The notes under the pieces were generated by a model. The model made no database searches, was not told where the DNA came from, and worked only from the letters and a program-made list of their open reading frames with translations. Made by a program: the position numbers and the translations under genes. This document shows, one piece after another, positions 3,540 to 62,852 of a stretch of DNA of 64,000 nt. Each line of letters opens with the position of its first letter. Positions within the stretch are counted from its first letter, which is position 1. Origin of the DNA: Ascidia mentula (lineage: Eukaryota > Chordata > Ascidiacea > Phlebobranchia > Ascidiidae); the NCBI GenBank assembly GCA_947561715.1, contig OX387197.1:5027001-5091000 (forward strand), given 5' to 3'.

Positions 3540-3775
3540 TTGGTATTGCCTCACATTTTCATCAAGAAAATTGTGCTTGGTACCGGGTTCACCAATGCTG
3601 TAGTAAATAACTTATCTGCAAAGCAAACGTCACAAAATAAGAAAAATGAAAAAGGCAATCACGTTTGTTACGGTTCGGTAACCACGCATTGCTTGACAGC
3701 CCCTGCATACATGTTATTTTGAGGTTTACAGACAGCTGCTTTTAATTTTAAAATCTAGAAATCTTTCTGATAACA

Positions 3776-16065: not shown

Positions 16066-16090
16066 TACAGTCGACTGCTTTCTGATAACA

Positions 16091-19799: not shown

Positions 19800-21332
19800 A
19801 TGGTGCTGAAAAGTCCGTTTCCAGATGTTGAGATTCCCCAAGTTCTAATCGCTCAATATGCTTTGGAAAAGATGGAACATTTCGGCAACTCTGTGGCGTT
19901 GGTGGATCCTTATCATGATCAATCGTGGACATTTAGCCAACTCCGCCAACAGTCAATTGAGTTTGCACTCAAACTACGTTCCATTGGTGTAGAGAAGGGC
20001 GATGTTGTTGGCTTGGTGGTTGACTTCCATCCAAAATGCTTTCCGATGATACTTGGAATTATTTTGTGCAAGGCTACACTAGCTACTGGCAATATCAACG
20101 CTGTACCTAAAGATATTGCCAAACAAATGAAGAAAGTGAATGCAAAGTTCTGTATTTGCGAAGAACAAGGATTGCAACAGGAGTTAAAGTCAGAACTTGA
20201 GCAAGTTATTATTTATGACTTTGACTTTTTCAAGGCATCTGGCGATTCTGCTTCAGAGAAAGTAATGGAAGAAATATTATCATCCAGTGGAGTTGATATT
20301 CATGAAGATCCACTGGCAATCGTTTTTACAAGCGGTTCAACAGCAGAACCAAAAGCCCTGGTTGTTACAAATGCCAGTTTTATGTCTTCTGTTACCATCG
20401 AATTTATTCAAAACCTGAAACCTGCTGAGTGTATGTTAACCGTTTGCAAACAGCTAAACTTGTTTGGATTCTGGAGTTTTTTTACCCACATTGTTTTGGG
20501 AGTGAAGCACATTGTAACAACAAATATATCACCAGAGCTGTTCAGCCACTGCGTTAAACTTTATGGCGTGAATGGCGCCATCATCAGTGACTACGTCACG
20601 TTTAACAGAATTACAAACGAAGCTGTTTTGGAAAATATCAACGCGTTACGATTTATTAGAGTTGGTGGAGCTTCAACACCAAAACAGTTAAGGCAGAAAG
20701 CAAGTGATAAGTTCCATGTGGCTGTGACAAGTGGATATGGAAGTTCAGAAGGAGGGTTGGTAACGTGTTCCCCAACAAATCAGACTCCATTTGAAAGCGT
20801 AGGAATGCTTTGTCCCAATGTTCAACTTAAAGTGATCGATGTTGATGACGGGACAGAACTTGGACCTGGTAAACAAGGGGAGTTTTTTGTAAAGAGTCCT
20901 GGTGTTTTTAAAGGATATTTGAACAACAAAGAAGCAACTGATGCAGTGTTGGACGAATGTGGTTGGTTTCGGACTGGAGACTTGGGATATTATGACGAGC
21001 AAGGATTTGTTTACGTGGTCGACAGACTTAAAAACGTGATTAAATCACATGGGAATATGGCAGTTTTTCCCACCCAGCTCGAAGGAGTACTTTTGTCTCA
21101 TCCAGGTGTGGCGGAAGCCGTTGTTGTTCGTATAGCTCATCCAGTATACAACGAAGCGGCAAAAGGTTTTGTTGTCAAAAAAGACAAATGTTTGGCAAAA
21201 GAAGAGTTGCTTAAATTCTACAACGCACAAGTGGCAGAATACCAGCAACTCTTTGGTGGTTTGGAGTTTATTGATCAAATTCCAAAGACTGGCCTAGGAA
21301 AACCGAGAAAGACTGCACTGGAGTCCCTTTAA
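19800..21332 (+). CDS. acyl-CoA synthetase / 4CL-like enzyme, copy 5 of 5 (mosaic, altered ATP loop)
   Basis: A 510-aa single-exon paralogue. The first third matches copies 2 and 3 (KKVNAKFCICEEQG, VIIYDFDFFK). The middle matches copy 4 (VMEEILSSSGVDIHEDPLA, TSGSTAEPK, SSVTIEFIQ, TNISPELFSHC). The last part matches copy 3 (NNKEATDAVLDECGW). It shares the Gly-to-Ala change in the ATP loop with copy 4. Its own changes include KQLRQK, EGVLLSHP, RIAHPVY, KDKCLAKEE and GKPRKT near the catalytic C-terminal lysine motif. The frame is open for 61 codons upstream, but the shared ATG at MVLKSPF is preferred. It is the last copy of the array. Confidence 0.88.
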   Translation: MVLKSPFPDVEIPQVLIAQYALEKMEHFGNSVALVDPYHDQSWTFSQLRQQSIEFALKLRSIGVEKGDVVGLVVDFHPKCFPMILGIILCKATLATGNINAVPKDIAKQMKKVNAKFCICEEQGLQQELKSELEQVIIYDFDFFKASGDSASEKVMEEILSSSGVDIHEDPLAIVFTSGSTAEPKALVVTNASFMSSVTIEFIQNLKPAECMLTVCKQLNLFGFWSFFTHIVLGVKHIVTTNISPELFSHCVKLYGVNGAIISDYVTFNRITNEAVLENINALRFIRVGGASTPKQLRQKASDKFHVAVTSGYGSSEGGLVTCSPTNQTPFESVGMLCPNVQLKVIDVDDGTELGPGKQGEFFVKSPGVFKGYLNNKEATDAVLDECGWFRTGDLGYYDEQGFVYVVDRLKNVIKSHGNMAVFPTQLEGVLLSHPGVAEAVVVRIAHPVYNEAAKGFVVKKDKCLAKEELLKFYNAQVAEYQQLFGGLEFIDQIPKTGLGKPRKTALESL

Positions 21333-24313: not shown

Positions 24314-27300
24314 ATGGAAGGTCGAATGGAGGTTGTTGTAGATTCTAATACTGTGGACGACCTGGAAGACCGTGCTACGGCATCTTCTAGTGTTGGTGAG
24401 AAAATCCTACTTTACCACAGTTCCTACTGTTGGTCAGTCTGTAGTCTATACCTACAGTACTTACTGGTGCACTGTCATTTACAGCACCTGAGGAGGCGAG
24501 TTCAAGCGCGCTAAAGCGTGTACAAATATAAATGTTTAACAGTCAGTCTCTTTTCGAAACAGTAAACCATCAAGAACTATACTTAATGCATGAAATTTAA
24601 TTGTTAGAATATTCGTGACGTTGTAGCTGCTAAAAATGCTAGAAGCTGGTCCTGTAAATGTTACAACGGGTCGGTTTACGCAATGCCTGCGCGGTAAAGT
24701 TTGCTAGGTATCATTGCGTTGTAAACATAGTTGCCTTCGATAAGATACGGTGACGCTTAAAAACTAAGCACCTACACTTCATGTGCTCACTTGAAATTGC
24801 TGTTTCTTTTTTGCAGATAAACAAAACGCCACGATGCCACCATGTGTGGAAGAGGTGGGTTTAGGTAGTGCACTAAGGGAAAAGTGTCGGAAAAACGGCA
24901 GAGAAATAAATTTCGTCGAAACTGCTGGTATCCTGCACGAACTCGGTCTTCTTTACAAACGTCGGAGTCCGGACAAACTAAGTCTTCTGCAGAGTGCGGT
25001 TCTGCTTGTTGGAGCGTACAAGCGTAATCCTGAAAACAAGGAGGCCGTAAAGAAAGATTTGAGGCAACTTTGCGACGATGTGACGTCACTGGCCAAAGCC
25101 AAATACCGAAACGTTGATTTAGTTACGGCTGCAGATAATTTCTACCTCCAGGTGGACATCTACCGCCGTGCTGTACAACGGAAATTGGATTTGGTGAAAT
25201 CAGAATGCGGCACTGATATTGATGGCAAATTCACGCAATTCGCAATGGAAGCCCAACTGGAATCCACGGACGGTTATTTAGGAATAATGAAGGCTGTTGG
25301 CGAGTTTTGTGTGAATGACGTCATGGGAAAGCCCCCTTGTCAGTTCAGTCACGTTGGTTTTGGTTCGTTGGCGCGGAACGAGGCCACAACTCATTCCGAT
25401 TTCGAGAGCATGATTTTGTTGGAGGAAGGTGTCCAAACGAGAGGTGACTACCAAGAGGTTTTAGAGTATTTCGGATGGTATTCCGTCATCTTTCAGCTAA
25501 TTCTGATCATGTTTGGTGAAATGATCATTCCCTTTGCCGCCATTCCGTCTCTTAACGATCCCCACTCAAAGGAAAACAATTGGTTTTACGATTCGTTTGC
25601 AAAATGCGGAATATGTCCGGATGGATTTGCCCCTCAAGCAAGCAAAAATCCAATTAGCGACGGGAAGGATTTTAAACTAATTAAACCAGTAAGTGGCATA
25701 CTGCAGTACCTCACGGAATACCCCGCAGACAAAAAACAGTACTTGGGCGATCTACTAACCAGGACATGCCATGTGTTAGGTGACGTAGATGTGTACAAAT
25801 GTTACGTCACCCAGTTGAGGAAAAATCAGGAAATCCAGAGAAAGACTTTGCGGTTTGCGATGTGGGCACAAAGTGAAGTGGAGGAAAGCTTTAAAAAGTT
25901 TAGTCCACAGAGCAGTTTCATTCAGTTTGAGCATAGTAACAAGTTTGATGTGAAACGTTTCATTTACCGAAGCGTTTCTATGTTGATGATGGTCGTGGGT
26001 AGAGTTTACGGCATTGAGGAAAGCTCAAGTTACGACATCGTAACCAAACTGCATCAACAAGGAAGAATTTCAGAACATTCTGCACGTTCACTGCATTTGA
26101 CTGTGGCTGTGGCTTGTTTTTACAGACTGCAAGCGTACGGAAAATATGGTGGTCAAGACGATATGCTATTTAGCAATAATTTCGATGACACAACAGTTCG
26201 TGGCGAACTGCTTGAAACCATAGGCGAGAAGCTGCTTGTGGAATTCTTTTGCACTGTTGGGTGCCTACAGAGTGTTCTGTATTTTTCCGTACACGCAGAT
26301 CTTAAACTAATCGACAGTTTGTTGCCGAGTATGAAAACATGGATTGAACCAAAGGTTTATCTCTTTCTGAGGCGTTTCAATAAAGCAATAGAAATATTAA
26401 AAACAACCGAAGTAACATCCGATTTTGATCACTGCGTTTTTAGAAAACAGTTCGGTGGGCCGAAGGAAGTTTTCAAAGCCACTCAACTCTCTCTTCTGGG
26501 AGCTTGCTTTTTCGCCCAACATGAATATCGTCTGTCGCTGAAATCGTTTAACGAGGCTCTGACGATCTTCTCGGAAAACCAAACCAAACATGTGGCGATT
26601 TGCTTAAACTCCATTGGTCAATGCTACTACAGACTTAAGCAGTTTGACAAGTGCTACCAAGCATTTGATCAAGTTCTTGCCCTGACGTCGAAAGACCGCA
26701 AACCCCCAACCTCACATCTGCGTTGCTTTACTTTCATATCTATTGCTATGTGTCTATCTCAACAGGGGAAGCACCTTGCTGCAGCAAAAGTCCTAAATAT
26801 AAATTTGGAACATCAGCTAGGATCGGATAGATCTGTTGCGCGGTTCCATTCTGTTCTTGGATTTTGCCTCTCCAACCTTGGTTTGCACGGCAAAGCCCTC
26901 CCACACTTCAAGGCACAGCTGGATGTGGTCTTGAAGTTGACCGATGACCAGCAAAGGGACTTAAAAGTCGCCAATGCTCACTCGCAGTTAGGTGAATGTT
27001 ATCTCCATCTGAGTGAGAATAAAAACGGATTGAAGCATTTTCAAATTGAGATGAAAATACGTGAGAGCAACGACGTAAAATCTATGCACGATATAGTAAT
27101 GTGTAAACTTAACATTGCTCACTGTTTATCATACGAGGGATCCAGAAACGAGGCGTTGGATATTCTACTTGTTTTAATGAAAAGTAGAGATTGTTGGAGA
27201 AAGCTTGCGGAAAGCAACAGTCATTTGGTATATCGCCTTGCAGCAAAGTGCCATTACGATATGAGGAACTTTTCCCAATCGTTAAATTGGAATTTAAAAC

Positions 27301-28247
27301 TTCTGAATCAATATGCGAAAACAAAGCGTACACACTCTAACATGGAACACAGCAGCTGCTTGTACAACGTGGCAAACTGTCAATTTAAGTTACATCAATA
27401 CAACATAGCTTCAAAAACATACTTAGAATTTCTTGTGCTTCAGCTGCAAGCCAGCAAGGACAGCTGCAAGCCAGCAACAAACGACGGCGCCGAGTTACAA
27501 AAATGCATAAACTCCATAAACTGCCTTCAGACGTGTTTTTTAAAAACAGGCCAGTTTTTAAAAAGCTTGAAGTGGTGCAAGGTCGAACTCGAGTACAGAC
27601 AGATCAAGTTGGGTCGCGATCAAGTGAGAATCGCAGAATGCCACAACCATATCGGGGCATGTTACTTCTCAATGGGTTTGCACGCGGCCGCTATTACCTC
27701 TTACCAGAAAGAAGAAACCGCTTGGAGAAGTACAGCAAGTGATACGAACTTTAAGGCTCACTCGGAGTGCCTCCACAACATAGGTTACGTTTTAAGCATC
27801 AGTGGAAACCAATTGGAAGCTGCAAGTTGGTACCGGAAGGAAGCGGAATTGCTGCGGGAATTTGGATCCACAGAAACGGGGAAAGAGAAAATGGCTTCGG
27901 CGTTTTACGAGGCTGGAACGTGCCTTCAAACATGCAAACATTTCCACAATGCTTTGGAACGTTTCGTAGAAGCACTGGAAGCTTTTGACTCATTGCTGCA
28001 TCGAGATAGAGTTTTGCTTGATATTGTGAATACTAAAAGCAGGATGGGTCAATGTTTCATTGCCTTAGGGATGTTCGAGGAAGGATTGGAAATGTTCCGT
28101 ACGTTTGACGATATTTATCGGCTTCAAGCCGAAAGCAGAAGACGTGCAATGCTGTGGCGATTAGATCTAACTGGCCGCTGTCTTTTTAGGATGCGTCGAT
28201 TCCAAGAAGCCTTTGGTGTGTTTAAAACGCTTATTGACATGTTGTAA
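24314..28247 (+). CDS. nucleotidyltransferase-like (GlnD/DUF294-type) + TPR repeat protein, paralogue A
   Basis: A two-exon gene. Exon 1 is 24314-24395 (ATG, phase 1 donor GTGAGA); exon 2 is 24817-28247 after the acceptor TTTTTTGCAG. The joined frame gives 1,170 aa. Residues near 207-224 carry FGSLARNEATTHSDFE, a GS...D-x-E pattern like the metal-binding site of polymerase-beta-type nucleotidyltransferases of the GlnD N-terminal class. The segments around it resemble that family too. The C-terminal half (from about residue 600) is a long run of TPR-like helix pairs (LNSIGQCYYRLKQFDKCYQA, HSQLGECYLHLSENKNGLKH, HNHIGACYFSMGLHAAA), suggesting a partner-binding scaffold. Biochemical activity is unproven. 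An intragenic tandem duplication of CAGCTGCAAGCCAGCAA lies near 27441-27477. Its inverted partner is at 41.5-45.0 kb. Confidence 0.88.
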
Positions 28248-41539: not shown

Positions 41540-44500
41540 TTACAAATTGTCATGGAGAGTTTTGAAAGTGTCAAAGGCCTCTTTGTAGCGACGCATCATA
41601 AAATAGCAACGGGCAGTTAGATTTAATCGCCAAAGCAATGCAGGTTTTCTGCTTTCGGCATCGAGTCGATAAATGTCGTCAAAATCACAGAAAAAATCCA
41701 ACCCTTCCTCGAACATTCTTAGTTTAAAGAAACAGTGGCCCACTCTGGTTTTAGCATTTACGATCTTGAGCAAAACGCAATCCCGATCCTGGAGTGTATC
41801 AAAAACTTCCATTGCTTCTACAAAACATATCAAGGCATCGTGGAAGAGTCTACAGATTTGAAGGCACCTTCCAGACTCGTAAAACGCCAAAGCCATTTTC
41901 TCCCGATCTGCTTCTGTGGAGCAAAATTCCCGCAGCAATTCCGCTTCCTTCCGGTACCAACTTGCAGCTTCCAATTGATTTCCACTGATATTTGAAACGT
42001 AACCTAAGTTGTGAAAGCACTCCGAGTGTTCCCTGAAGTTCGCATTGATGGCTGCGTTTGTCCGGGAGGTTTCTTCTTTCCGGTAAGAGGTAATAGCGTT
42101 CGCGTGCAAACCCATTGAGAAGTAACACGCCCCGATATGGTTGTGGCATTCTGCGATTCTCACTTGATCGTGACCCAACTTGATCTCCCTGTACTCGAGT
42201 TCGACCTTGCACCACTTCAAGCTTTGTGAAAACTGGCCTGTTTTTAGAAAACACGCTTGAAGACAGTGTATGGAGTTTATGCACTGCATCATCTCGCCGC
42301 GCGTTGGGTCTTTGACTTGCAACTGAAGCCCAAGAAATTCCAAGTACGTTTTTGAAGCTGTTTTGTATCGATCTAACTTAAATTGACAGTTTGCCACGTT
42401 GTACAAGCAGCTGATGTGTTCCACGTCAGAATTTGTGCGTTTTAATTTCACGTATTGATCCAGAAGTTTTAAATTCCAATTTAACGATTGGGAAAAGTTC
42501 CTCATATCAAAATGGCACTTTGCTGCTAAGCAATAAAACAGATTCCTGTTTCTCATTGTAAGCTTTTTCCAGCAATGCTTATAACTGTCCATTAACGTAT
42601 TGATAATGGCCAGCGCCTTATTCCTTGATCCTTCAAATGATAAACAGTGAACAACGTTAAGTTGACACTTCACTATATCGTGCAAGGATTTTACGTCGTT
42701 ACTCTCACGTATTTTTACCACCTGTTGAAAATGCTTCAATCCGTTTTCATTCTCACTCAGTTGGAGGTAACATTCACCCAACTGCGAGTGAGCATTGGCG
42801 ACTTTTAAGTCCCTTTGTTCGTCATCAGTTAACTTCAATAACACATCCAGTTGTGCTTTGAAATGTGGGAGGGCTTTGCCATGCAAACCAAGCTTGGAGA
42901 GGCAAAATCCAAGAACAGAATGGTACTGAGCAATATCCCTATTGAAAGGAGAATGTGCAACGAGAAAATTATCCGAATTTCTGACCAGGAATTTTACTGC
43001 AGCAAGGTGCTTCCCCTGTTGAGCTAGACACATAGCAATAGATAGGAAAGTAACGCAATACAATTGTGTTTTTTTTTCCAAAAAATACTTTGACATCAGC
43101 GCTAGTACTTGAACATAAGCCTGATGGCACTTGTCAAACTGCTTAAGTTGGTAATGACATTGACCAATGGAGTTGAGGCAATAGGCCATATGACTTGGTT
43201 TGTTTTCCGCGAAGATCGTCAGAGCCTCGTTAAACGGTTTTAGCGACAAACAATATTTCTCCTGGAAAAAATAACAAGCTCCAAGAAGGGAGAGCTGAAA
43301 GGCTTTCAAAACTTCCTTCGGCCCACCGAACTGTTTTCTAAAAACGCTGTGATCAAAATCCGATGTTACTTTGGTTGTTTTTAATATTTCTATTGCTTTA
43401 TTGAAACGCCTCAAAAAGAGGTAAACCTTTGGTTCAATCCATGTTTTCATACTCGGCAACAAACTGTCGATTAGTTTAAGATCCGCGTGTACGGAAAAAT
43501 ACAGAACACTCTGAAGGCAACCAACAGTGCAAAAGAATTCCACAAGCAGCTTCTCGCCTATGGTTTCAAGCAGTTCGCCACGAACTGTTGTGTCATCGAA
43601 ATTATTGCTAAATAGCATATCGTCTTGACCACCATATTTTCCGTACGCTTGCAGTCTGTAAAAACAAGCCACAGCCACAGTCAAATGCAGTGAACGTGCA
43701 GAATATTCTGAAATTCTTCCTTGTTGATGCAGTTTCGTTACGATGTCGTAACTTGAGCTTTCCTCAATGCCGTAAACTCTACCCACGACCATCATCAGCA
43801 TGGAAACGCTTCGGTAAATGAAACGTTTCACATCAAACTTGTTACTATGCTCAAACTGAATGAAACTGCTCTGTGGACTAAAGTTTTTCAAGCTTTCCTC
43901 CACTTTGCTTTGTGCCCACAGCGCAAGCCGTAAAGTCTGTCTCTGTATTTCCTGATTTTTCCTCAACTGTGTGACGTAACATTTGTACACATCTACGTCA
44001 CCTAACACATGGCAAGTCCTGGTTAGTAGATCGCCCAAGTACTGTTTTTTGTCTGTGGGGTATTCTGTGAGGTACTGCAGTATGCAACTTACTGGTTTAA
44101 TTAGTTTAAAATCCTTCCCGTCGCCGATTGGATTTTTACTTGCTTGAGGGGCAAATCCATCCGGACATATTCCGCATTTTGCAAACGAATCGTAAAACCA
44201 ATTGTTTTCCTTTGAGTGGGGATCGTTGAGAGACGGAATGGCGGCAAAGGAAATGATCATTTCACCAAACATGATCAGAATTAGCTGAAAGATGACGGAA
44301 TACCATTCGAAATACTCTAAAACCTCTTGGTAGTCGCCTCTCGTTTGGACACCTTCCTCCAACAAAATCATGCTCTCGAAATCGGAATGAGTTGTGGCCT
44401 CGTTCCGCGCCAACGAACCAAATCCAACGTGACTGAACTGACAAGGGGGCTTTCCAATGACGTCATTCACACAAAACTCGCCGATCGCCTTCATTATTCC

Positions 44501-44964
44501 CAAATAACCGTCCGTGGATTCCTGTTGGGCTTCCATTGCGAATTGCGTGAATTTGCAATCAATATCAGTGCCGCATTCTGATTTAACCAAATCCAATTTC
44601 CGTTGTACAGCACGGCGGTAGTTCACCACCTGGAGGTAGAAATCATCTGCAGCCGTAACCAAATCAACGTTTCGGAATTTGGCTTTGGCCAGTGACATCA
44701 CATCGTCGCAAAGTTGCCTCAAATCTTTCTTTACGGCCTCCTTGCTTTCAGGATTACGCTTGTACGCTCCAACAAGCAGAACTGCACTCTGTAGAAGACT
44801 TAGTTTGTCCGGACTTCGTCGTTTGTACAGTAGACCGAGTTCGTGTAGGATACCAGCAGTTTCCACGAAGTTTATTTCTCTGCCGTTCTTCCGACACTTC
44901 TCCTTGAGCACAGTTGATAAACCGACCTCGTCCGCGCAGACTTGCAACGAAACGTTTTGGTTTT
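41540..44964 (-). CDS. nucleotidyltransferase-like + TPR repeat protein, paralogue B
   Basis: A large 3' exon of 3,425 bp on the minus strand, inverted relative to paralogue A. It begins after the acceptor TTTTAACAG with ENQNVSLQVCADEVGL, matching paralogue A's DKQNATMPPCVEEVGL at the same phase-1 splice position. The open frame that continues upstream (to 45010, MCIALFV...) is intron sequence. The first coding exon should lie further right, but I could not identify it. The nucleotidyltransferase motif FGSLARNEATTHSDFE is conserved. The N-terminal half is nearly identical to paralogue A, whereas the TPR half differs at roughly one residue in four to five. The protein ends FDTFKTLHDNL. It is intact, so probably functional; what it binds is unknown. 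Confidence 0.87.
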
Positions 44965-45209
44965 CTGTTAAAATTAGTACATCAGTTAACACAAAAAGAG
45001 CTATACACAAAGGGGTCGGAAGCTTGTTGATAAGCGTTGGTTTACCTTGTTTGCATATTATTCAGTCCATGGCACCACGATGAATAAAAGCAAACATTTA
45101 TCACTAACTAACGCGGCCCTGCTTTCGATTACACCATGAAGCCGAGCCCAGTACCTAGCAACATAATGTGCTGATTACAGCAAATCAAATTAATACAATA
45201 CCCTTAAAG

Positions 45210-45395: not shown

Positions 45396-46906
45396 TCTTT
45401 ATTATGCAAAATATATACGCTACCAACCAACAGAAACTTCGTATATTTAAAATATAATCAGAAATATTTGCAAGGTTTCACCATGAATTAGGCAAAGTTG
45501 GTTTCCTTACCACCACTCGTAGATCTCGTAGAATGATTGTCATCAGCATTACGAACTACAGCAACCTCCATTCCATTTTTCATGGCGATCAGAAATTTCA
45601 TTCAATTCCTACGTTCCGATAATCGAAATATGTGAAATTAATACCTCAAGGACTTATGGGTTGCTGAACAAAGCGTAAAATCCTTTCATCCGAGCACTGC
45701 TTCAATGGCTGAAATACGTTAAGCTATTGTTGTAATCCAGAGCTTTCGTAATGTTTATTTAGTGGTATCCTCTCGTTTTATGTTACACTTTATGAGGCTG
45801 CGTCTGTCTCGTTTACAACAATCTGCCATTCGTAATTGTACCCAACACAACGCGCTGTCAACACTGTTTGTTGAACTATGTTGTTTGCGCACTGTCTTTG
45901 CTTATTGTTCAGCCGTTTGCTAAGTGTGTGTGACAACATGTTGATCATGTTGACAGTGTAAAGATTGCATGCACTGTGCGTATGTTAAATAGTCAGATCG
46001 GCCCTGGGCATAATTGATTGATTTTGCCAAATCGGGTATCGCGCTTGTGTGAATGTCCCCTAAAAGTGTAGCCTACCAGAGAAGATAATAAACTGCAAAT
46101 CTCTAATTTTCGAAACACAGAAAACGCCTTGTTCTCTTTCACCACCTCAGAATTGGGCGATCACCATCAGAATAACTTATAATCAGGTCTGAAGAGAGCA
46201 GGTACAACCGGGGGGGGGGGGGGGGGGTCATGAATATCGAAAATGGAGTGAACACAAGTTTTGCTCTGAAACTGAGGTATTTCCCCGCGATGGCTTGAAT
46301 TTCCAAAAATAAAAAAATCTCGTACCACAATCTCCAAAGCCCTGGCCGTAATATTGGAAGAACTGTATTGGCAGACGGAACGATTGGTGTAATTTAATCT
46401 CTGGCATGTTTGTCCGACGCTAATTACGTCATTACCTCCAGACGCGGACTCGCTCCTGCACGATAGAATGACGACAGACAAATTGCTGCCCCATGAGGGC
46501 CAAGCGCGGCTTTTTACCAAAAATCTTGCCCAGCCGGGGTCAAATGAAGAGAACGAAGCATTCATCATTATTTTAAACCGCATTCTAAAGCACAATTGGC
46601 CTCCGTGCATCACTAATTTCCTTGTTAAGCAGAGGACATAGAGGAGGAATGTAATTTTGGCAAAACTGTTTTCAATAGAAATACCGACAAGCGTCTCGAG
46701 GGAAACGGCTGTAAACCAAAATTGTGTTGCAGTTTGTGTTTTATTGCAAAGGAATACAAAAGGTTGTCGATATGGCGGTGGGGAGCAAAAAAGCATGTCA
46801 TGATTTGGTGTGGCAGACCGAAATACAAAGCATAAGCGTGCAAGACAAAAAAGCAACCTAATACTGCAGTTGGATTCCATGGTCAGTCCGAGCATATCCC
46901 GCAAGC
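45396..46906. other. intergenic, no gene seen; contains an 18-G homopolymer
   Basis: Downstream of the serpin gene on its strand. A run of 18 G occupies 46210-46227 and breaks the open frames around it. The longer minus-strand open frame crossing this region lacks family resemblance and is read as chance. Confidence 0.45.
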
Positions 46907-47092
46907 TTACAGCTCATCGTGACTTTGAACGCGTCCCTGTGGCCGCTTGAAGGCGCCCATGAGGTGGAAGGCGGGGCTTGAGCGACGGCGGACCAATAGG
47001 ATAAACGGATGGTCGGCATAGACGACAGACCGCTCCCTCGAGCGCTGTGCCTCCGACCTTTCGGCTTCAACCTTGCCACCATCTTCTGACAC
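46907..47092 (-). CDS. serpin terminal exon, cassette 2 (charged hinge, HDEL end)
   Basis: A 62-codon exon (including stop) after the acceptor GGAACCAG, in the same phase as cassette 1. It carries its own loop and C-terminus: VSEDGGKVEAERSEAQRSRE, then YADHPFILLVRR, then FHLMGAFKRP and a final QSHDEL. Aligned without gaps to cassette 1, Arg again falls at P1 (QRSR/ERS), but the hinge is rich in Lys, Glu and Arg where inhibitors need small residues. The loop is three residues shorter. It could be a non-inhibitory isoform, a decayed cassette, or a specialised loop. The perfect HDEL and intact frame argue that it is used. Confidence 0.8.
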   Translation of the reverse strand: MSEDGGKVEAERSEAQRSRERSVVYADHPFILLVRRRSSPAFHLMGAFKRPQGRVQSHDEL

Positions 47093-50000
47093 CTGGTTCC
47101 AGCAGCAATAGGATGAAATATTAGAACTTGTTATTCGTAAACACAGGAATTATGCCATCGGAAATTGGTCATATTGCACTTTGAATACTCCATAAATATA
47201 AACAGGAAACATGTATGTATGAACGGTCATGACGATAAAAATGCGAAGTTTCGAAAAATTAAAACATTTACTTTGGAACTTTTGGTCAATGCTAAAGCAT
47301 AGTTATTGGTTGGAAACATATTTGCAGCTATTGCAAAATTGCACTGTGTATTTTTCGTGAAGTACGTTCTTAAATTTCACCTTATATTTGTCACATGGGT
47401 CGGCGCAACTCTACAATGATGCCGAACGTACTTTAAGGGCCACAATGTATACGTTTTGGACCGCAGGGGCATGTGAAAAATGAACATGACAAATGAACTT
47501 CAAATAATTGCATTTTTAAAACTCATCGTGATCGTAATGTTCATCGAGAAGGGGGCCTTCGGGACGCTTGAGGCGCCCAAGGAAAAGGATAAGGCCGCTC
47601 TGCTGGTGCCGGATGGCCCAAAAGAACGGTTGATCAGCGATGAAGCGGGGCCTGGAATCCAAGGAGCGCGCTACTATGGTAACGGTTGTGGCCGCAGCCG
47701 CCTCGCTGCCTTCTTCGTTGACCTGGTGAAATTAAGTTGAACCCACTGCTGGTTTACCGATAATTGGGTCACGGGGCCAATTCGAGCGAGTACACGTCTT
47801 ATCATTTCCAGGGGTAAACGAAGTAAAAATAATAAGTGGACTTTTTATGCCAATAGCAAATCGGAAACTGCCTACATTTACATGTTGCCGGGTCAAAAAT
47901 TTCCTTTTCATCAAATTCAGGTTAATGTTACTCGTTTGTCTCTAGAGAACGCAAATATTTCACTTTGCCTTTCCGTGGTTTACCACTGTTTCATTTGAAC
48001 CGCATCAAGTCTATTTTGTCGCTACCACGTCATCGAAAACGTCTTCCCGTTTGCTGTTTAAGTACGCTCGGCACCAAAACAGTACTGCAGTGTTTTTATG
48101 TATTGGTCGAGGTGTTTTAATATGTAAAGTTACATAAGTTTTAGGACTTTTCGGTTAATCACGTACCTCTACCACTGCTTTGTGGAGCACCTTGTCAACG
48201 CTCAAGTTGTCTTTGTTGGCAAAACCGGACAAATCCGCTTTGCTCTGGTCGAAAACGTCAGTCACGCCCAACTTGGGGAGAATTTCATGCAGGTTGAGAG
48301 ATTCCTCGAGTTTGAACTTGGGTATTGTTACCTGTTGTCAACATTTACTTTATTGTTCATCGCACTCAAAATAAAGGGAGTGCTTTGCCAGGAAGGCCTA
48401 ACTGGGGCTTGTGCCCGTAATTTTTAAACCTGGAGATTGGTACATGTGTTCCAGTCGAAATTTGTCAATTATAGTATGATCACCTCTTAACTATGCTGCT
48501 CATTCCTTGCAGTCCAATTTAGGCTTACAAGGCCAAACCAACGTGTTTTAAATTCAATGCTTCACCAAAAAATCGTGTAACCGTTTACTTACATCCACAG
48601 TCCTGTAGCTAATCTCCGAAAGCCAACGAGTCAGATTTTCAGCATTCAGATTACGCTCCACCTTGTCAAGGTCAAAGTTTTCCGGCAGCAAGATCACCAT
48701 GCTGTATTCCTTGCCAGCATATGGAAGTTCGAGCACCTGCAGAGTCAGAGATTCCACATAGCCGTAGCGAAATTTGCCTGCGTATAAATGCATCGAGGTA
48801 AATTTTGCTCGAAAATAAAAGCGACTCGGTAGGCATTCCGTTCGAGGAAAAACGCAGTGCAATGCAATCGTTTACTCCAAAACTTGTGCGCTAACGACCC
48901 TTTCTAATTTACCAAAAATTTTAACTTCCCTTTATGTTTGACAGGTATCTAGTTTTTAGTTACACAGCAATTGGACTGAAAAACTTGTCAATATAGTGGC
49001 CGTAAAATGTTGTGTTTGGTATGACATTTGTAAATTCTTTGCGGCCTAAAGAATTCGTCGTATTTAACCACTCGGCGGGCCGCGACTCTATTTTTGGAAC
49101 CCCTGGTTAAACACACCTAATTAAGAAAGAACATGCTGATATGAAAGCTAAGCTGTAGCATTAGCAGATATTGGTACCCTGTAGTTGATCTGCTCCAGTT
49201 TTAGCACAAATCAAGTTGATAATTTAAGAAACAAGAGTCCTTACCTTTTTGGAACATGAATGGGGTCTTGACCACTTTGTAATGGGAAACGTAGAAGCTT
49301 CTTCTTTCCGTCTGGTGTTCGTTGAACTTTGAATGCCAGTTACCACGGAAATAGATGGCGTTGGCAATGACGAGCGCAGTGTTACTGTCTACTGAGCCTC
49401 TTTCCATCATGTTTTCGATTTTTCCTTCCGTTTTTTCACTGATCCAATTGTTGATCGATTCAACAGACTGATCAGCTTCTTGACCAAAGTTCAGCTTAAA
49501 ACATAATCGTAATGTTATTGAAAATGTTTTTCAAACATATGTTTTATTTAATGTTATTCAAAATCTACTAGAAAGTCGACTTTACTAGTGTATGCTATCA
49601 CTTACGGAATCGACTTGTGCCCCATACACCGTCAAGGCGTTCTTGTAATCTTCGAGAACTTGAAGCTGATTGTTGGCAAACACTCGATTCGATGAACTGA
49701 TTGTTACGTTTTCAGAACTCTGCAATAAATACGTTGATTGTTTGCTATAGTTTCATGTTACAGTAATCTTCGAGAAAGTTAGGTAATTTTGCAGATTTTT
49801 TTTCAGACAAAGCTCACAAACCTTGTCCAAAAGCAGGCTGTGCAATTCACCAAAAGCGGAGTGAAACTTTCCTTCCAGCTTATTGAAGTTGAACGCCTCG
49901 TCTATCTGTTTCGCCGTGTCACCTTTTGCCCCGAGGTGCGTCATCGCCATTGCTGTTAAATTACATTTAGAATCAACGCATGATTTTATACAAAATATAT

Positions 50001-50208
50001 CTGTTAATGTACCTGCTGCCACACTAACGGGTGAAAATATCAGGTTTTCAGTTGCTGGGTCTTCATACAGTTTCTTGTAGAGCTCGATGCTGAATTGAAT
50101 GTTAGCTTCCGACAATTTGGCAACATCCTCGTCGATGTCCAGGGTTTTTGCTGAGGTAACGACGAACAGCAACACCAAACACGACACACAAAGTACTGTT
50201 CTACCCAT
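46907..50208 (-). CDS. serpin with ER-retention signal and two alternative reactive-loop exons
   Basis: Minus-strand coding exons: 50208-50013, 49952-49822, 49719-49606, 49494-49245, 48777-48593, 48331-48167, then one of two terminal exons, 47722-47516 or 47092-46907. With the first the frame gives 415 aa, with the second 408 aa. A signal peptide (LCVSCLVLLFVVTSA) precedes typical serpin elements: NLIFSPVSVAAGT, THLGAKGDTAKQI, ALVIANAIYFRGNWHSKF, VLELPYAGKEYSMVILLPE, IPKFKLEESLNLHEILPKLG and ADLSG, KVLHKAVVEV. Serpins trap serine or cysteine proteases through the reactive-centre loop. Both terminal exons begin at phase 0 and end in HDEF or HDEL, so the protein probably stays in the secretory pathway. 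ER-targeted serpins of this kind are known from amphioxus and insects. Confidence 0.92.
47516..47722 (-). CDS. serpin terminal exon, cassette 1 (Arg-Ser reactive site, HDEF end)
   Basis: A 69-codon exon after the acceptor TTTCACCAG. It has a canonical inhibitory hinge, EEGSEAAAATT, with small residues at P12-P9. Counting from P17 places Arg at P1 and Ser at P1' (TIVAR/SLDS), close to the antithrombin scissile bond. The strand RFIADQPFFWAIR and GLILFLGRLKRP complete the serpin fold. The protein ends HYDHDEF, with HDEF as an ER-retention-like tetrapeptide. This loop predicts inhibition of a trypsin-like or thrombin-like protease. Confidence 0.88.
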   Translation of the reverse strand, partial: VNEEGSEAAAATTVTIVARSLDSRPRFIADQPFFWAIRHQQSGLILFLGRLKRPEGPLLDEHYDHDEF

Positions 50209-50698: not shown

Positions 50699-52198
50699 TT
50701 ACCCCAAGTTTACATCAACTGGGATACTTATGCTTTCAGATGAAATGAATATAATTCTTCCAGAGTCCACTATGGCATATTTGACAGGTACAGTGTTTGA
50801 TAGATCATCAAAGCACTTCATGTCATACAGACTGAGCATCTCACTTGATGACGTTAACACCACAACTCTCAAAAATGGTTTACCAGGATGAGTCTTTTTA
50901 AATGGTTTTGTCCTGTCTGTTTGAAAAACATTGAATTTAATGGAATGTTCTGTGACTGAGGTCTCAACGGTTTCACATGGAATTGGATCAAGTTTAACCT
51001 TTTTTAGGATATCCATTGTTGTGTGTGCATTATTTGGATGCAGCAATGGTTTTACATGTCCAGAGTGCATTTTGTTGCATAAGTTGGCATGCCTTTGCAG
51101 CATTTCTTTTTTGTCTTCAAGCATCATTTGCTTGTAGTGTTTCCATGATTTTGATGTGCTACGAATCTGTTCATAATGCAGTTTTTTAGGATAAGAAAAG
51201 TCACTTGGACGAAGTCTGTCACTATTCCCATCGTCACTATGCCGATTTATTCTTTGCATCCATATGGAAGGCAAAAGCTCATACTGAGAATCTGTATTTG
51301 GAGGCAAGAGCATTTTGTCCCAGTTTTGGGAAAATAATTCTGTTCGAGTTTGACCAAAATCCAAAAATTTACCCTTACACAAGTCAGTTTCCAAAGTAGC
51401 CAAAGCTGGACTTGCGGTAAAAGGTTGGAATAGTTTGTCAATAGCTATCCACCAACCACGTGATGTTGACCCGGATCTTGAATATTTCATTTTTTTTAAT
51501 TTATGATGAACAGATTTGTTCCCAATTGGATGCAATTCTTGAGTTTTTGTGACTTTGCTTTTTATCGGGTCATTTGACACTTCGTCATTTTTTCGGCGTT
51601 TTTTGTGATTCTCACTACTATGTGGTTTGTCTTCCTGGGAGGTGCTGATAGTTTGAGTCACATATCTCTGTACCCTATAACCGAGTTTAGTCAAATGTGC
51701 ATAAACTTGGTACTCATCTACAGTACTTAGTTTATCTTCTGGTTTTTCACACAGCAGGGCAGAGTAAGCACTTTGCATTGACATCGGGACTCCATTTAAC
51801 AGCAATTCAATCTCACCCACGTCAAGCAAAAACAAAGCCTCTTCGGGATACAAAGCAAAAAATCCATGTGCATGGTGATGACATTTGCTTTGCATGAATT
51901 TACCTTGTTTTGTGACTTTGGCAACCCCATGTTGGGGGAGCCATTCCGCTGTGCCAAGGTTTCCAAGCTTGGTGACCTTCCACGAAGAATATGTGTTTCT
52001 TAAAGTGCTATAATACGCTTCTAATTTCCTTGTTTCTGCTGCAGATTCAAATTTCTCGCTAAATTTTACACCACCCTTTGGAGGCAAAGTTGATTCTCGA
52101 AATCCTGGCCTCTTGCTCAGTATTTGTTTTGCCAAGGCCACGTCATTTTTGTTCCATTGCTTTAACCCTTCTTCGCCTTCTTCTTCAAACGATTTCAT
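50699..52198 (-). CDS. TSEN54: tRNA-splicing endonuclease subunit Sen54 (single exon)
   Basis: A 499-aa uninterrupted protein resembling TSEN54, a structural subunit of the nuclear heterotetramer that excises introns from pre-tRNA. The N-terminal Sen54 domain is visible: GTAEWLPQHGVAKV, then HGFFALYPEEALFLLDVGE, then VPMSMQSAYSALL and TVDEYQVYAHLTKLGYRVQR. A lysine-rich variable middle (NHKKRRKNDE and KLKKMKYSRS) follows. The C-terminal domain has FLRVVVLTSSSEMLSLYDM and VPVKYAIVDSGRIIFIS. The ATG at MKSFEEEGEEG is preferred; an upstream in-frame ATG (52294) would add 32 residues with no Sen54 likeness. Vertebrate genes have many introns, so the single exon suggests intron loss or an intact retrocopy. 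Confidence 0.88.
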   Translation of the reverse strand: MKSFEEEGEEGLKQWNKNDVALAKQILSKRPGFRESTLPPKGGVKFSEKFESAAETRKLEAYYSTLRNTYSSWKVTKLGNLGTAEWLPQHGVAKVTKQGKFMQSKCHHHAHGFFALYPEEALFLLDVGEIELLLNGVPMSMQSAYSALLCEKPEDKLSTVDEYQVYAHLTKLGYRVQRYVTQTISTSQEDKPHSSENHKKRRKNDEVSNDPIKSKVTKTQELHPIGNKSVHHKLKKMKYSRSGSTSRGWWIAIDKLFQPFTASPALATLETDLCKGKFLDFGQTRTELFSQNWDKMLLPPNTDSQYELLPSIWMQRINRHSDDGNSDRLRPSDFSYPKKLHYEQIRSTSKSWKHYKQMMLEDKKEMLQRHANLCNKMHSGHVKPLLHPNNAHTTMDILKKVKLDPIPCETVETSVTEHSIKFNVFQTDRTKPFKKTHPGKPFLRVVVLTSSSEMLSLYDMKCFDDLSNTVPVKYAIVDSGRIIFISSESISIPVDVNLG

Positions 52199-53830
52199 GC
52201 CGCCCCAGCAATGAACACGCAAGTGCAAACACGTTGAAAATATCAACAACACAAACCTTGCGTCACGAAACTCATTGGAGCGTATTAGTTTCATTCACGC
52301 GTATAAATTCTGCAATCACTAACGCTTCCAAAACCTTGGTGCTTTCAAAACCTTATTTAGCTTACGACACCCTACAAAATACAAAACTATTTTACCCATT
52401 TGGGAACCAAATAACGCCCGCATCGAGATAATGCCATAAATATAACAAAAATTTCCGCAGTGAATACATGGAGAAAAGCTAGAGGCACCCTCATCGCAGT
52501 TTGGGAATCACTGCACTTAACCCATACAATACATTATAAACAGTGTCAACACAAGATACTGAAAAATACCCTTGTTGGATTAGCTTCAGTTGATAATTTT
52601 AAACTTAGGCAAACCCTCCTAGAAACTGTTTTATGTGCTTGGTGATTACAAAATTTGATTTATGTGTGTAGCTTACAACAATAACACAAATAATTATAGG
52701 CTACGCGAGAGGGAGTGCAGGGTCGAGTCTAGGGGGCCATAAATATCAAAAATGACTCATGAATGTCATTATGTGCTTGGAAAGATTTTTTATCACAACG
52801 GTCCACATCTCATGTGATCTTTAAAACAGGTCATCACAACGGATTTTTTTTTCTTTAAGTGCCCTGAAGATTTGAGCGACAAAATAACAACAATTTCTTC
52901 CCATATCCAAGGAAAGAAACCATGTATTTTTATCTTATACTGCAGGTCTTATTGCGACATACGACGGGATGTTTTGCAAGTACTTCCTCACCCACACAAA
53001 AGTCTTACTCACTCACACAAAAGTCTTACTCACTCACACAAAAGTCTTACTCATCCACATAAAAGTTGGCTGCCATTACCGGTTGCCAAACCATTTTCAA
53101 TAAGGGATCCACGATGGAGGACACCTTGTATGAGCAGCCAACACTTGGTACAGAAGTTAGTGGATCAGTTTTGCAATCCACAAACCGACCTCTAGGTCAT
53201 GCAAGTAAGTGCATTTGACATGATGGTATATAAACATGCTACAAAGAATTATTTTGCTTCATTTATTTAGTATTGAGCCAAAGAGAGTTGCCTGCAATAA
53301 AGGACTCCAACAAAAACGATACAAAACGACGTTTTTATTTGAAGTTGGTGTTCTGCAGTATTTTGGTCATTTTAAATTGCCTCATTTTTGCATTCTCCCT
53401 GCACTTAGTTGCACAAGTCGAGGTATGGTAGCACTTATGTTCCGAAACTAGGTGAAATAGTGCGAGAAACCATTTTTTTTGTGCAGAAAATTAACGCTTC
53501 ACTAGGTAAGTTGCTTATGTTTGATGTTAAATACGTGGTTTATACCATGATATGATTCACTCTGTGAGTAAAGAAACATGGATTACAATGTCAAAATGAT
53601 ACTTTATGTCCTAATAATGCAAAAAATGTGACGTTAACGAGAAAACGGAAAGATGGTCACATGACAGGCTACGTCATCATTTGCAGCATGTTTTCACGCA
53701 AAAAAAATATTTTCGGAAAAAGTGTAATGAGTTTAACTGTCACGCAATTCAGCTTATTACTATCGATGTTGTGTGTTTGATGCTAAACTACTACTAAGAA
53801 AACATGCGTAATAGCCACAAAGCAACAAGG
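52199..53830. other. intergenic, no gene seen
   Basis: Contains the 5' side of TSEN54 and, at 52992-53066, a 21-bp tandem repeat (CACACAAAAGTCTTACTCACT, about 3.5 units). The open frame across the repeat (reading SHKSLTH) looks like a consequence of it. No gene is supported. Confidence 0.45.
52992..53066. repeat. 21-bp tandem repeat
   Basis: About 3.5 units of CACACAAAAGTCTTACTCACT; the last unit is degenerate. Confidence 0.9.
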
Positions 53831-60985: not shown

Positions 60986-62852
60986 ATGAAAGTAAAAAAT
61001 CTGGCTGTGGGCGTTGTCATGTGTATCGGTTATAGTATTGTATCATTGTACACTGCATACTCCATGCTGCAGCAGAGGAAAACAGGCAACGTGGAAGCAG
61101 AAAGCCAACTGCTTAGAACTGAATACAGTCACAGAGGTGGGGTAAACTTTCTTTAGTTTGTTATAATAAGCTTAAACTAACCAACATTTTTAGGGATAGA
61201 CCAACAAAATTCTTCGGTATCTGTGGTTCAAATTTGGGACATTGGTACAGCAGCTGCCTTTCTGTGGCATGATGTGCTGCAAGGCATGCATCCATTGTCT
61301 TCAAACAATGGGTGGTTTCAAAGTTCTTTACAACTGGAAGACATTACTTTCTGGTACATTAGTTAACTGATTTTGTTGAGTATCTGACATGTGACTAATT
61401 GACTATACTCTTTCATAGACACTTTTGATATGTGTTTTTAATTCTGGTTAAACACGTAGGCCTACATTAAATAACTTAGAATTGTTTGGAAAAAATGATT
61501 CACACATTTGAATGTTTATAAACAGGCATTAGTTTGTGCAATCAACAATTGATTAAAAAAATCTGTGCTATTAATTTTCACTTAAAAAAATCCTTGGTGC
61601 GCAGTATAAACTTTCTGATATGGAGTGCTGTAGGGTTCCTTCAAATAAAAATGCTTTATTTTTGGAACAGGTACCGCCAAAGTAGAAATATACAACCCAA
61701 GAATGCTCCACTGTTTATGGACCAATGTCTGATACTAGGGTTGGAGGCACACACTGAATCAAGCAAGGGGCTATCAAAAGCCTGGCTTGATTTTGCCTTA
61801 AACTTGCATCACACATGTGGAATTGGATTAATTGTCCTTGGAAATCCTGAATGCCAAAATGATTGGCTGCGACCTTATCTCCAAGAGGATAAAATAAAAT
61901 TTGTGTTCTTGGTGTATGATTCTCCATTTATTGATAGCAAAAAGGTCTTTTCGTGGCCCTTGGGCCCGAAAAGGTAAGTTAGGTATTCAATATAATGAGT
62001 AAACTTATCTGAATTTTCTGTTTTCAAGTAATATTGGTCGTAAGTTTGAAAACTTTTCGGTCCTAAAATTAAGGTCTGTTGCCAACCAGCTACTATTCAG
62101 TTTCAATAGTTAATTGGTGTGCAAGGCAGGATTGGTAGTTTTTGTGCATTTTTTATTTTGTTTGAAGGTCAGCAGAGATAGGGTCTTACTCTGAACTTCT
62201 TGACGTAACTGCTCCAAGAAAGTACACTTGCAACTTTGTGGGGACCACTTTGCCAAACACTTCGAGACAAACAATTTTTCAACTCAACAAAGAAAATATT
62301 CTAAAACATTGCCAGGTTAAGTTTAAAAACAGGTACGTTTCTAAAATAGCATATTTTCTAAATATATTTGCATTAAAATTGGAGCTATCTTATTACTACT
62401 TGTATCTATGTAGAATACTTAGTTTGTTTCTAAACTGTGGTATGTACATTTGCATCAGGTATGCAAGTCAAAATCTATATGCGGATAGCTACAGACAAAT
62501 AATCAAAGATAGTGATCTCACTCTATCTCCATCATGTAAAAATTCCGAATGCTCAAGGACATATGAAGCCATGTCTCTTGGCTCAGTACCTGTGATAGAA
62601 GATGTCATTGGTCCAAGAACATGCAACAGCTCCAAATATGGATCTTACAGCATTTTTAAACAGAAAAAGGCACCAGTAATTTTTGTCAAAGACTGGAGAA
62701 AAGAACTGCCAAAGATATTGACTGAGTATGAGCAGTTAACTTCATCTCAAAAGGTCAGGCGTAGGATCAATCTTTTAAAATGGTACGATATATTTAAAAA
62801 CGATTTAAAGCAGCATTTTATTGGAGTAGTACAGAAAACATTTGTCAACTAA
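60986..62852 (+). CDS. RXYLT1: ribitol-5-phosphate xylosyltransferase 1 homologue
   Basis: Five exons: 60986-61136, 61194-61353, 61671-61973, 62168-62332 and 62459-62852. They join to 390 aa with matching phases. RXYLT1 (TMEM5) is a Golgi type II membrane enzyme that adds xylose to ribitol-5-phosphate while building the matriglycan of alpha-dystroglycan. A membrane anchor (LAVGVVMCIGYSIVSLYTAY, residues about 6-25) starts the protein. Shared segments with the vertebrate enzyme are VQIWDIGTAAAFLWHDVLQG, IGLIVLGNPECQNDWLRPYL, FLVYDSPFIDSKKVFSWPLG, YTCNFVGTTLPNTSRQ, SDLTLSP...ECSRTYEAMSLGSVP and VIFVKDWRKELPKIL. Length is somewhat shorter than the human protein, mostly at the N-terminus. The start is the first ATG before the anchor. 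It ends 360 bp from the convergent MESH1 gene. Confidence 0.9.

Follow-up and report, generated by a model that had tools for sequence, protein, structure and literature searches.

A serpin gene of the tunicate Ascidia mentula carries two alternative terminal exons, of which one, cassette 1, has the sequence of an ordinary inhibitory reactive loop, and the other, cassette 2, is HSP47-like (SERPINH1) in sequence and probably non-inhibitory. The gene is located in the window, i.e., the whole 64,000-nucleotide stretch of DNA that was analyzed, and we lean towards a two-isoform ER model in which alternative splicing at intron 339c, to either terminal exon, would yield one inhibitor and one non-inhibitor from a common serpin body. 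The first-pass annotation of this DNA had missed the HSP47-like and probably non-inhibitory nature of cassette 2, owing to which the gene is probably not choosing between two inhibitors.

Gene structure and ER signals

The gene is encoded on the minus strand and comprises six common exons (50208-48167) followed by two terminal exons of equal phase:

50013..50208, minus strand: exon 1, start codon, signal peptide MGRTVLCVSCLVLLFVVTSA (recognized by inspection) and start of the serpin body; donor at 50012, intron at antitrypsin position 60a
49822..49952, minus strand: exon 2, serpin body; followed by intron 105c
49606..49719, minus strand: exon 3, serpin body; followed by intron 144c
49245..49494, minus strand: exon 4, two-residue insert at 173/174 and the Arg aligned to HSP47 Arg222; followed by intron 225a
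48593..48777, minus strand: exon 5, serpin body; followed by intron 285c
48167..48331, minus strand: exon 6, final common exon; donor AGAG/gtacgt, intron 339c
47516..47722, minus strand: cassette 1, hinge GSEAAAAT, predicted P1-P1' Arg-Ser, strands s1C/s4B/s5B, tail YDHDEF, stop
46907..47092, minus strand: cassette 2, charged hinge GGKVEAER, YADHPFILLVR (HSP47-like s1C/s4B), tail QSHDEL, stop
46740..46745, minus strand: AATAAA, the sole one from 48167 to 46000

The layout given by the first-pass annotation (coordinates, phases, peptides, both stops, and the HDEF and HDEL ends) was reproduced throughout, including its two loop exons of equal phase. The acceptors of cassette 1 (ttcaccag/GTCA, 47722) and cassette 2 (ggaaccag/GTGT, 47092) are both positioned at a codon boundary, and each cassette (68 and 61 aa, respectively) completes the serpin fold, as judged by sequence. 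No third cassette was detected in the 64 kb window when all stop-free stretches of at least 25 residues in six frames were scanned with a C-terminal serpin profile. The AATAAA at 46745 is probably common to both isoforms. Variant ATTAAA motifs are encountered at 48121 and 46398.

The proposed ER targeting of this serpin agrees with the signal peptide and with the tails, which had both been described as ER-retention-like. This description fits HDEL, which matches the PROSITE pattern [KRHQSA][DENQ]EL (quoted in PMC4476131; here and below, published statements are taken from the available excerpts of the papers cited), but HDEF falls outside this pattern, although HDEF reporters are retained, to a lesser extent than HDEL and a greater extent than HDEA (PMC7617889). 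None of the other serpin C-termini detected in this genome, 21 distinct ones in total (17 plus 4 more, the underlying search providing lower bounds), ends in an ER-type tail. The suspected tunicate host was confirmed by the mitochondrial code, and neither a haplotype copy nor a pseudogene of the gene was found in the assembly, which gave a single DNA match to the locus and a single protein match to cassette 2.

Coding evidence for cassette 2

The Pfam Serpin profile (PF00079) scored the body at 328 bits, cassette 1 at 50.6 bits, and cassette 2 at 22.2 bits; the body and cassette 1 classify with the serpin superfamily, and cassette 2 by itself stays under the 27-bit cut-off. With the C-terminal profile, built from seven other serpins including HSP47, E was 4e-21 for cassette 1 and 7e-7 for cassette 2, as compared to 0.54 for the next best stretch of the 64 kb. 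Moreover, the GC content of cassette 2 is 0.61 as compared to 0.23-0.40 across seven intron stretches, and its in-frame codon score of 16.6 bits is the highest of its six frames and was matched by 0 of 1333 control windows (stop-free, overlapping, and mostly non-coding), with the qualification that this score is not strand-proof, as a reverse-strand frame of cassette 1 (27.8) exceeds its true frame (19.2). Identity between the two cassettes at the three codon positions is 0.52/0.61/0.38 in a protein-guided alignment, which favors positions 1 and 2. By its profile match, GC content, codon score, and codon-position identities, cassette 2 has the appearance of genuine coding DNA. Its Pfam score, and HLMGAF in the position where LF.GR is usual, speak against the two-isoform model. 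The length of the open frame by itself was dropped as coding proof, being too weak: an open frame survives in about 9% of copies mutated neutrally (1904 and 1820 of 20000), and the chance that 61 random codons contain no stop is P 0.035.

Hinges and reactive loops

The cassette 1 hinge, GSEAAAAT, resembles those of antithrombin and neuroserpin, and has the small residues at P12-P9 and the canonical hinge of inhibitory serpins, with a single charge in P14-P8, as in 78 of 85 background serpins; the canonical inhibitory hinge and antithrombin-like Arg-Ser bond proposed earlier were corroborated. The best solved-structure match of cassette 1 is neuroserpin (44.3 bits), and with the neuroserpin C-terminus as query an intronless C73 serpin scored higher (56.8 bits) than cassette 1 (51.6 bits).

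The cassette 2 hinge, GGKVEAER, does not classify as inhibitory, and its P14-P8 stretch (GKVEAER) contains four charged residues, whereas at least four charges are found in only 2 of the 85 background serpins (rows keeping Gly at P15). The highly charged, non-canonical hinge noted before is therefore real, and it is probably non-inhibitory. HSP47's own hinge has two charges in comparison to four in cassette 2, and the two hinges differ in detail. From the P15 Gly to the PF motif the loop spans 23 residues in cassette 2 and HSP47, and 26 residues in cassette 1 and neuroserpin; a 23-residue loop occurs in 6 of 92 background serpins, about eight of which 92 have implausible lengths there. The Arg that had been placed at P1 of cassette 2 holds this position when counted from the hinge, but loses it when counted from the PF motif, as the loop is three residues shorter. 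The residue background consisted of 80 prokaryotic serpins and 12 others, including some rows (L032 and L043) that are probably not serpin frames; these two were kept in the counts of loop length, residues, and hinge charge, and were left out of a second tree (branch length 10).

Resemblance of cassette 2 to HSP47

The solved-structure matches of cassette 2 (n=11) are led by four distinct HSP47 sequences, at no more than 22.2 bits, with neuroserpin at 17.8 bits. Among 11 serpin C-termini, its top partner is HSP47 (score 85, z 17.3), followed by a paralogue in terms of z (L026, 13.1) and by cassette 1 in terms of score (67, z 11.8). The HSP47 residues Arg222, Ser305, Leu381, Tyr383, and Asp385, which contact collagen (PMC8301893, PMC7877763), correspond to Arg, Thr, Val, Tyr, and Asp in isoform 2, three being identical and two conservative; both Leu381 and Phe382 are replaced by Val in cassette 2. 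The positions for counting were chosen only after the HSP47 match had been seen: the Tyr383 equivalent, present in cassette 2, was encountered in none of the 89 ungapped background rows, the Arg222 equivalent, present in the common body, in 1 of 90, and the Asp385 equivalent, also in cassette 2, is common (76 of 88). PAI-1 presumably has Arg at the 222 site as well. Judged from its sequence only, isoform 2 shares with HSP47 the combination of a non-inhibitory loop and an ER retrieval tail, besides the loop length, the YADHPFI.LVR segment, and intron 225a, a position that is used by HSP47 too (PMC2746811).

HSP47 differs from the gene in having introns 192a and 300c, in lacking intron 339c and the 173/174 insert, and in its body, which is identical at 92 of 319 positions. 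Aligned to HSP47, cassette 2 is identical at 21/57 positions, as compared to 20/61 for cassette 1 and 19/59 for neuroserpin. When the HSP47 C-terminus was used to search the genome, cassette 1 was the first of nine matches (31.8 bits) and cassette 2 the second (26.2 bits), and downstream of the PF motif HSP47 scores 91 with cassette 1 versus 76 with cassette 2.

Relationships of the common body

The best solved-structure match of the body is SERPINB1 (237 and 235.7 bits), followed by conserpin and antithrombin. In a tree of 30 rows (the window, 4 human, 5 of 9 tunicate, and 20 of 80 prokaryotic rows, without SERPINB1) the window joins the antithrombin side and not HSP47, with support of 84/78 that is not decisive; neither a grouping with HSP47 (AU p 0.09) nor one with neuroserpin (p 0.20) was rejected in this tree, which is limited by long branches and few animal sequences. 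The gene has introns 60a, 105c, 144c, 225a, 285c, and 339c, and thus only 225a of the HSP47 set of 192a, 225a, and 300c (PMC2746811). The 173/174 region contains 20 residues in the window, neuroserpin, and antithrombin, and 18 in HSP47 and antitrypsin; since the 20-residue state occurs in 67 of 95 aligned rows, the insert may be ancestral. HSP47 is linked with a P2RY6-like GPCR (PMC5583329), and no GPCR family was present among 10 window frames scanned with Pfam. Orthology with HSP47 is not established, as the body is nearer to SERPINB1 and antithrombin, two of the three HSP47 introns and the two-residue deletion of the HSP47 group are missing, and the HSP47 C-terminus prefers cassette 1.

Neuroserpin orthologues neighbor PDCD10 in head-to-head linkage. 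Neuroserpin orthology through such synteny was considered and rejected, because PDCD10 is located on another contig (C69, 6.86 Mb) than the window (C1); among the matches listed, those to serpins on C69 are found only at 22.3 Mb, with none near PDCD10.

Proposed model and alternative explanations

In the favored two-isoform model, the exon 6 donor would be joined to the acceptor at either 47722 or 47092, the two being in competition, and the single AATAAA at 46745 would serve the transcripts of both isoforms, placing cassette 2 within the 3' UTR of isoform 1. This isoform would trap and inhibit a serine protease specific for Arg (P4-P1' I-V-A-R/S), and HDEF may confer on it weak retrieval and perhaps partial secretion. 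The loop of isoform 2 is unlikely to insert, and this isoform would therefore not act as a protease inhibitor; it would be kept in the ER by HDEL and could bind a client via its C-sheet face as HSP47 does. By analogy with HSP47, such binding is a tentative and rather doubtful proposal, and collagen as the client is unlikely.

That cassette 2 represents an exon copy in decay, spliced in rarely or never, would account for its Pfam score below the cut-off, its noncanonical hinge, and the open frame, which neutral mutation sometimes preserves, but we consider it improbable given the intact acceptor, the stop immediately after HDEL, the codon score unmatched among the control windows, and the recognizable s1C/s4B core. 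A pair of inhibitors differing in specificity, which the first-pass annotation implies, with cassette 2 as a fast-evolving second reactive loop comparable to those of Drosophila Spn42Da, would agree with the identical exon position and phase of the cassettes, with the known use of this architecture for loop-cassette exchange (PMC4006314), and with the Arg at P1 when counted from the hinge; the four charges in GKVEAER, in contrast to the one charge that prevails in the background, and a loop shortened as in HSP47 make it hardly probable.

It is quite possible, even if not what we expect, that cassette 2 provides an expressed non-inhibitory ER serpin, up to this point in accordance with the favored model, but is similar to HSP47 by convergence or chance, and has a role in general ER chaperoning or another role unrelated to collagen. 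The cassette 2 identities, the preference of the HSP47 C-terminus for cassette 1, the SERPINB1, conserpin, and antithrombin scores of the body, its position in the tree, the absence of introns 192a and 300c, and the 173/174 insert all agree with convergence or chance, against which stands the joint occurrence of Tyr383, Arg222, the 23-residue loop, the lost hinge, HDEL, and intron 225a.

Implications

HSP47 is described as indispensable in mammals (PMC6874656) and as vertebrate-only (group V6), missing from invertebrates including tunicates (PMC5583329). Fibrillar collagen is reported for the tunicate Ciona (PMC3973637), and fibrillar collagen C-domains are present in this genome, which in our reading raises the question of how tunicates cope without HSP47. 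It seems improbable, but would be consequential, that a single gene provides both a neuroserpin/antithrombin-type ER inhibitor and an HSP47-type collagen chaperone and that HSP47 is not a vertebrate invention. If true, the collagen-binding face of HSP47 would have originated within an ER serpin subject to alternative splicing, and in vertebrates it would be carried by a gene of its own; an isoform with the lost hinge, the HDEL, and the three main contact residues of HSP47 next to an inhibitor in the same gene would provide a concrete intermediate. If the HSP47 link fails, splicing would still toggle one ER body between inhibitor and non-inhibitor.

Comparison with known serpins

Antithrombin (SERPINC1) is the tree partner of the body, has an IAGR/SL bond like that of cassette 1, and shares intron 339c, but is secreted, lacks an ER tail and cassettes, and has otherwise different introns. 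SERPINB1 (leukocyte elastase inhibitor), the top structural match of the body, has a C-terminus without an ER tail, and we take it to be an intracellular protein without a signal peptide. Spn-1 of lancelet, sea urchin, and Nematostella has ER-type tails (KDEL, HEEL, SDEL) and the 173/174 insert (PMC2556349), for which human neuroserpin represented the neuroserpin/Spn-1 lineage in our comparison, and a signal peptide is reported for the lancelet and sea urchin proteins (PMC2556349). The tunicate gene differs from Spn-1 in the absence of PDCD10 linkage, its two terminal cassettes, and its introns, and cassette 1 has Ala-Arg at P2-P1 (Ala-Arg/Ser) in place of the Lys-Arg of the neuroserpin/Spn-1 convertase inhibitors.

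Splicing of the loop has been noted for 'nematodes and urochodates' (PMC4006314), and some urochordate serpins have C-terminal localization signals (PMC4476131). The supposed novelty of ER tail and loop cassettes in one gene was not upheld, as Drosophila Spn42Da (Spn4), structurally similar to neuroserpin, already combines a single body, four alternative C-terminal loop exons, and, at the end of the crystallized A/B form, a likely ER retention signal (PMC4006314). An HSP47-like invertebrate cassette was not found in the literature searched, and an earlier report of the same exon pair is possible. The isoforms of Spn42Da are described as typical inhibitory serpins (PMC4006314), whereas the tunicate gene has two loop exons, an ER-type tail on both, and one probably non-inhibitory hinge; cassettes with ER tails are thus a known architecture, and the pairing of an inhibitor with an HSP47-like cassette appears to be new.

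Gene structure and genomic context

The serpin gene lies on the minus strand, with its ATG at 50208 and its AATAAA at 46745. Re-derivation of the gene model reproduced the exon coordinates and peptides of the first-pass annotation, with six shared exons followed by two terminal exons in the same phase:

50208-50013, minus, shared exon 1
49952-49822, minus, shared exon 2
49719-49606, minus, shared exon 3
49494-49245, minus, shared exon 4
48777-48593, minus, shared exon 5
48331-48167, minus, shared exon 6
47722-47516, minus, terminal exon, cassette 1, starting on a codon boundary
47092-46907, minus, terminal exon, cassette 2, starting on a codon boundary

The shared exons encode 347 residues that make up the serpin body and, by inspection, a signal peptide, and the predicted proteins measure 415 residues with cassette 1 (isoform 1) and 408 residues with cassette 2 (isoform 2). 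At the level of the gene model, a common body with signal peptide, two cassettes and two tails are shown. The introns are located at 60a, 105c, 144c, 225a, 285c, and 339c. Within the 195.8 Mb assembly a single match was obtained for the locus by DNA, and likewise for cassette 2 by protein. The suspected tunicate host was corroborated by mitochondrial COX1 (contig C79), in which AGA/AGG stand opposite human COX1 glycines in 13 of 16 aligned codons, i.e., the ascidian code.

A SEN54 homologue (tRNA-splicing endonuclease subunit, PF12928) is present as a single open frame at 50702-52294 on the same strand as the serpin, with 491 bases between its stop and the downstream serpin start codon. Five similar plus-strand frames (3752-5308, 7333-8991, 11018-12676, 15992-17620, and 19584-21329), with ends approximately 3.7 kb apart (4.9 kb from third to fourth), probably form a tandem array; the first, the sole member scanned, is an AMP-binding enzyme (PF00501, 184 bits). 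The similar frames 24795-28244 (plus, 1150 aa) and 41543-45061 (minus, 1173 aa) contain TPR repeats and weakly match the DUF294 nucleotidyltransferase family, and 62166-62849 (plus) matches the RXYLT1 C-terminal domain (PF24785, 176 bits).

Coding potential of cassette 2

In Pfam the body scored 328 bits, cassette 1 50.6 bits, and cassette 2 22.2 bits, the latter below the curated cut-off. A profile built from the C-termini of seven other serpins, HSP47 (SERPINH1, the vertebrate collagen-folding ER serpin) included, detected cassette 1 with E 4e-21 and cassette 2 with E 7e-7, the next best stretch having E 0.54. The GC fraction of cassette 2 is 0.61 vs 0.23-0.40 in the introns. Its in-frame codon score (16.6 bits) is the highest of its six frames and was reached by none of 1333 overlapping, stop-free control windows, with a score that is not strand-proof, as a reverse-strand frame of cassette 1 (27.8) exceeds the true frame (19.2). 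Identity between the cassettes is 0.52, 0.61, and 0.38 at codon positions 1, 2, and 3, a drop as would be expected for coding sequence and towards which protein-guided alignment is itself biased. As about 9% of neutrally mutated copies stay open, the open frame alone is weak evidence for coding.

Character of the two cassettes

The first-pass assignment of a canonical inhibitory hinge and an antithrombin-like Arg-Ser site to cassette 1 was borne out by the hinge GSEAAAAT and the bond IVAR/SL, near antithrombin IAGR/SL (slash marking the bond). Neuroserpin was its top solved-structure match (44.3 bits); since the neuroserpin C-terminus slightly prefers an intronless serpin on contig C73 of this genome (56.8 vs 51.6 bits), cassette 1 is most aptly described as a generic inhibitory loop.

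The hinge of cassette 2, GGKVEAER, is highly charged as described earlier, with four charged residues in P14-P8 vs two in HSP47; among background serpins (92 rows: 80 prokaryotic, 9 tunicate, 3 human) one charge is found in 78/85 and four or more in 2/85. Four distinct HSP47 sequences headed its solved-structure matches (to 22.2 bits), followed by neuroserpin (17.8). In pairwise comparison with 11 serpin C-termini the maximum was again HSP47 (score 85, z 17.3), ahead of the paralogue L026 (59, z 13.1), SERPINB1 (57, z 12.1), cassette 1 (67, z 11.8), and neuroserpin (62, z 11.3). The likeness to HSP47 is divided at the PF motif: before it cassette 2 scores higher than cassette 1 (46 vs 15), and after it lower (76 vs 91). 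Measured from P15 Gly to PF, the loop has 23 residues in cassette 2 and HSP47 and 26 in cassette 1 and neuroserpin; a length of 23 occurs in 6/92 background rows, about 8 rows having implausible lengths there.

HSP47 contacts collagen through Asp385, Arg222, and Ser305, with Leu381, Phe382, and Tyr383 on the same face (excerpts of PMC8301893), and the patient allele Arg222Ser weakens binding (excerpt of PMC7877763). Opposite HSP47 222/305/381/383/385, the residues are Arg, Thr, Val, Tyr, Asp in isoform 2 and Arg, Thr, Arg, Ile, Asp in isoform 1. The Asp385 equivalent is common in the background (76/88), the Arg222 equivalent occurs in 1/90 ungapped rows and that of Tyr383 in 0/89, and no row of the 92 combines the latter two; Arg was also absent at the 222 site from nine intronless serpin stretches of this genome, a scan that missed multi-exon serpins. 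Because the positions were picked after the HSP47 match was known and animal serpins are few in the background, these HSP47-like contact residues in the predicted isoform 2 are suggestive only.

Relationship of the body to HSP47

Evidence from the body argues against HSP47 membership. SERPINB1 (237 bits) led its solved-structure matches, with conserpin, SERPINB9, and antithrombin next and HSP47 absent from the best 60 of 203, and its identity to antithrombin is 126/335, to the tunicate paralogue L001 113/317, to neuroserpin 95/316, and to HSP47 92/319. The body groups with antithrombin in the tree (support 84/78); grouping with HSP47 (AU p 0.09) or neuroserpin (p 0.20) was not rejected. HSP47 has introns 192a, 225a, and 300c (excerpt of PMC2746811), of which only 225a is shared; 339c is shared with antithrombin and the lancelet L2/L3 genes (same source). 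Moreover, the two-residue 173/174 insert is present in this serpin, neuroserpin, and antithrombin, but not in HSP47. The HSP47 C-terminus gave nine genomic matches, the best being cassette 1 (31.8 bits), followed directly by cassette 2 (26.2 bits); with full-length HSP47 the intronless C73 cluster came top (148.6 bits), probably because its matches are unbroken by introns.

On contig C73, G000:C73:14228000-14255000 (L023-L025) holds a clade-B-like, mostly intronless serpin cluster with differing reactive loops, loop variety arising via gene copies, not exons. At G000:C73:3750500-3771500 (L015-L017), about five multi-exon serpin genes, with five C-terminal exons among them, stand in a tandem array; their loops lack the usual EEG hinge start, e.g., HLGTRAAAASAAM.

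Tails and proposed mechanism

Both tails had been considered ER-retention-like; HDEL of cassette 2 matches the PROSITE pattern (as given in an excerpt of PMC4476131), whereas HDEF of cassette 1 does not and finds its support in reported receptor binding and retention. The KDEL receptor binds HDEF peptide at 23 uM vs 18 uM for HDEL, a crystal structure exists for the HDEF peptide, and reporter retention follows HDEL > HDEF > HDEA (passages of PMC7617889). Of 21 further distinct serpin C-termini inspected in this genome, none has an ER-type tail; therefore, judged by predicted C-termini, this is the only ER-tailed serpin gene among those found.

We propose that alternative 3' splice sites are chosen, with one poly(A) signal probably serving both isoforms, since the AATAAA at 46745 is the only one between 48167 and 46000. 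Isoform 1 would act as a trap for an Arg-specific protease within the early secretory pathway, from which it may leak, and isoform 2 would be held in the ER, binding a client via its C-sheet face without inhibition. Collagen is a possible, unproven client, as fibrillar collagen C-domains were found in this genome.

Comparison with known serpins

Invertebrates are stated to be without HSP47 (passage of PMC5583329), and no report of an inhibitory cassette paired with an HSP47-like non-inhibitory one was found in the literature covered, the key tunicate paper excepted. As noted before, alternative loop cassettes are known in nematodes and Drosophila, and ER-tailed serpins in lancelet and Drosophila (excerpts of PMC4006314 and PMC2556349). 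Their combination in one gene already occurs in Drosophila Spn42Da, which like the present gene has alternative loop exons together with a likely ER tail (PMC4006314, in part). Since, besides Spn42Da, loop splicing is said to exist in 'nematodes and urochodates' (PMC4006314), some urochordate serpins have localisation tails (cited in PMC4476131), and Spn-1 proteins of lancelet, sea urchin, and Nematostella have ER tails (PMC2556349), the architecture of loop cassettes and ER tail is, by these excerpts, already known.
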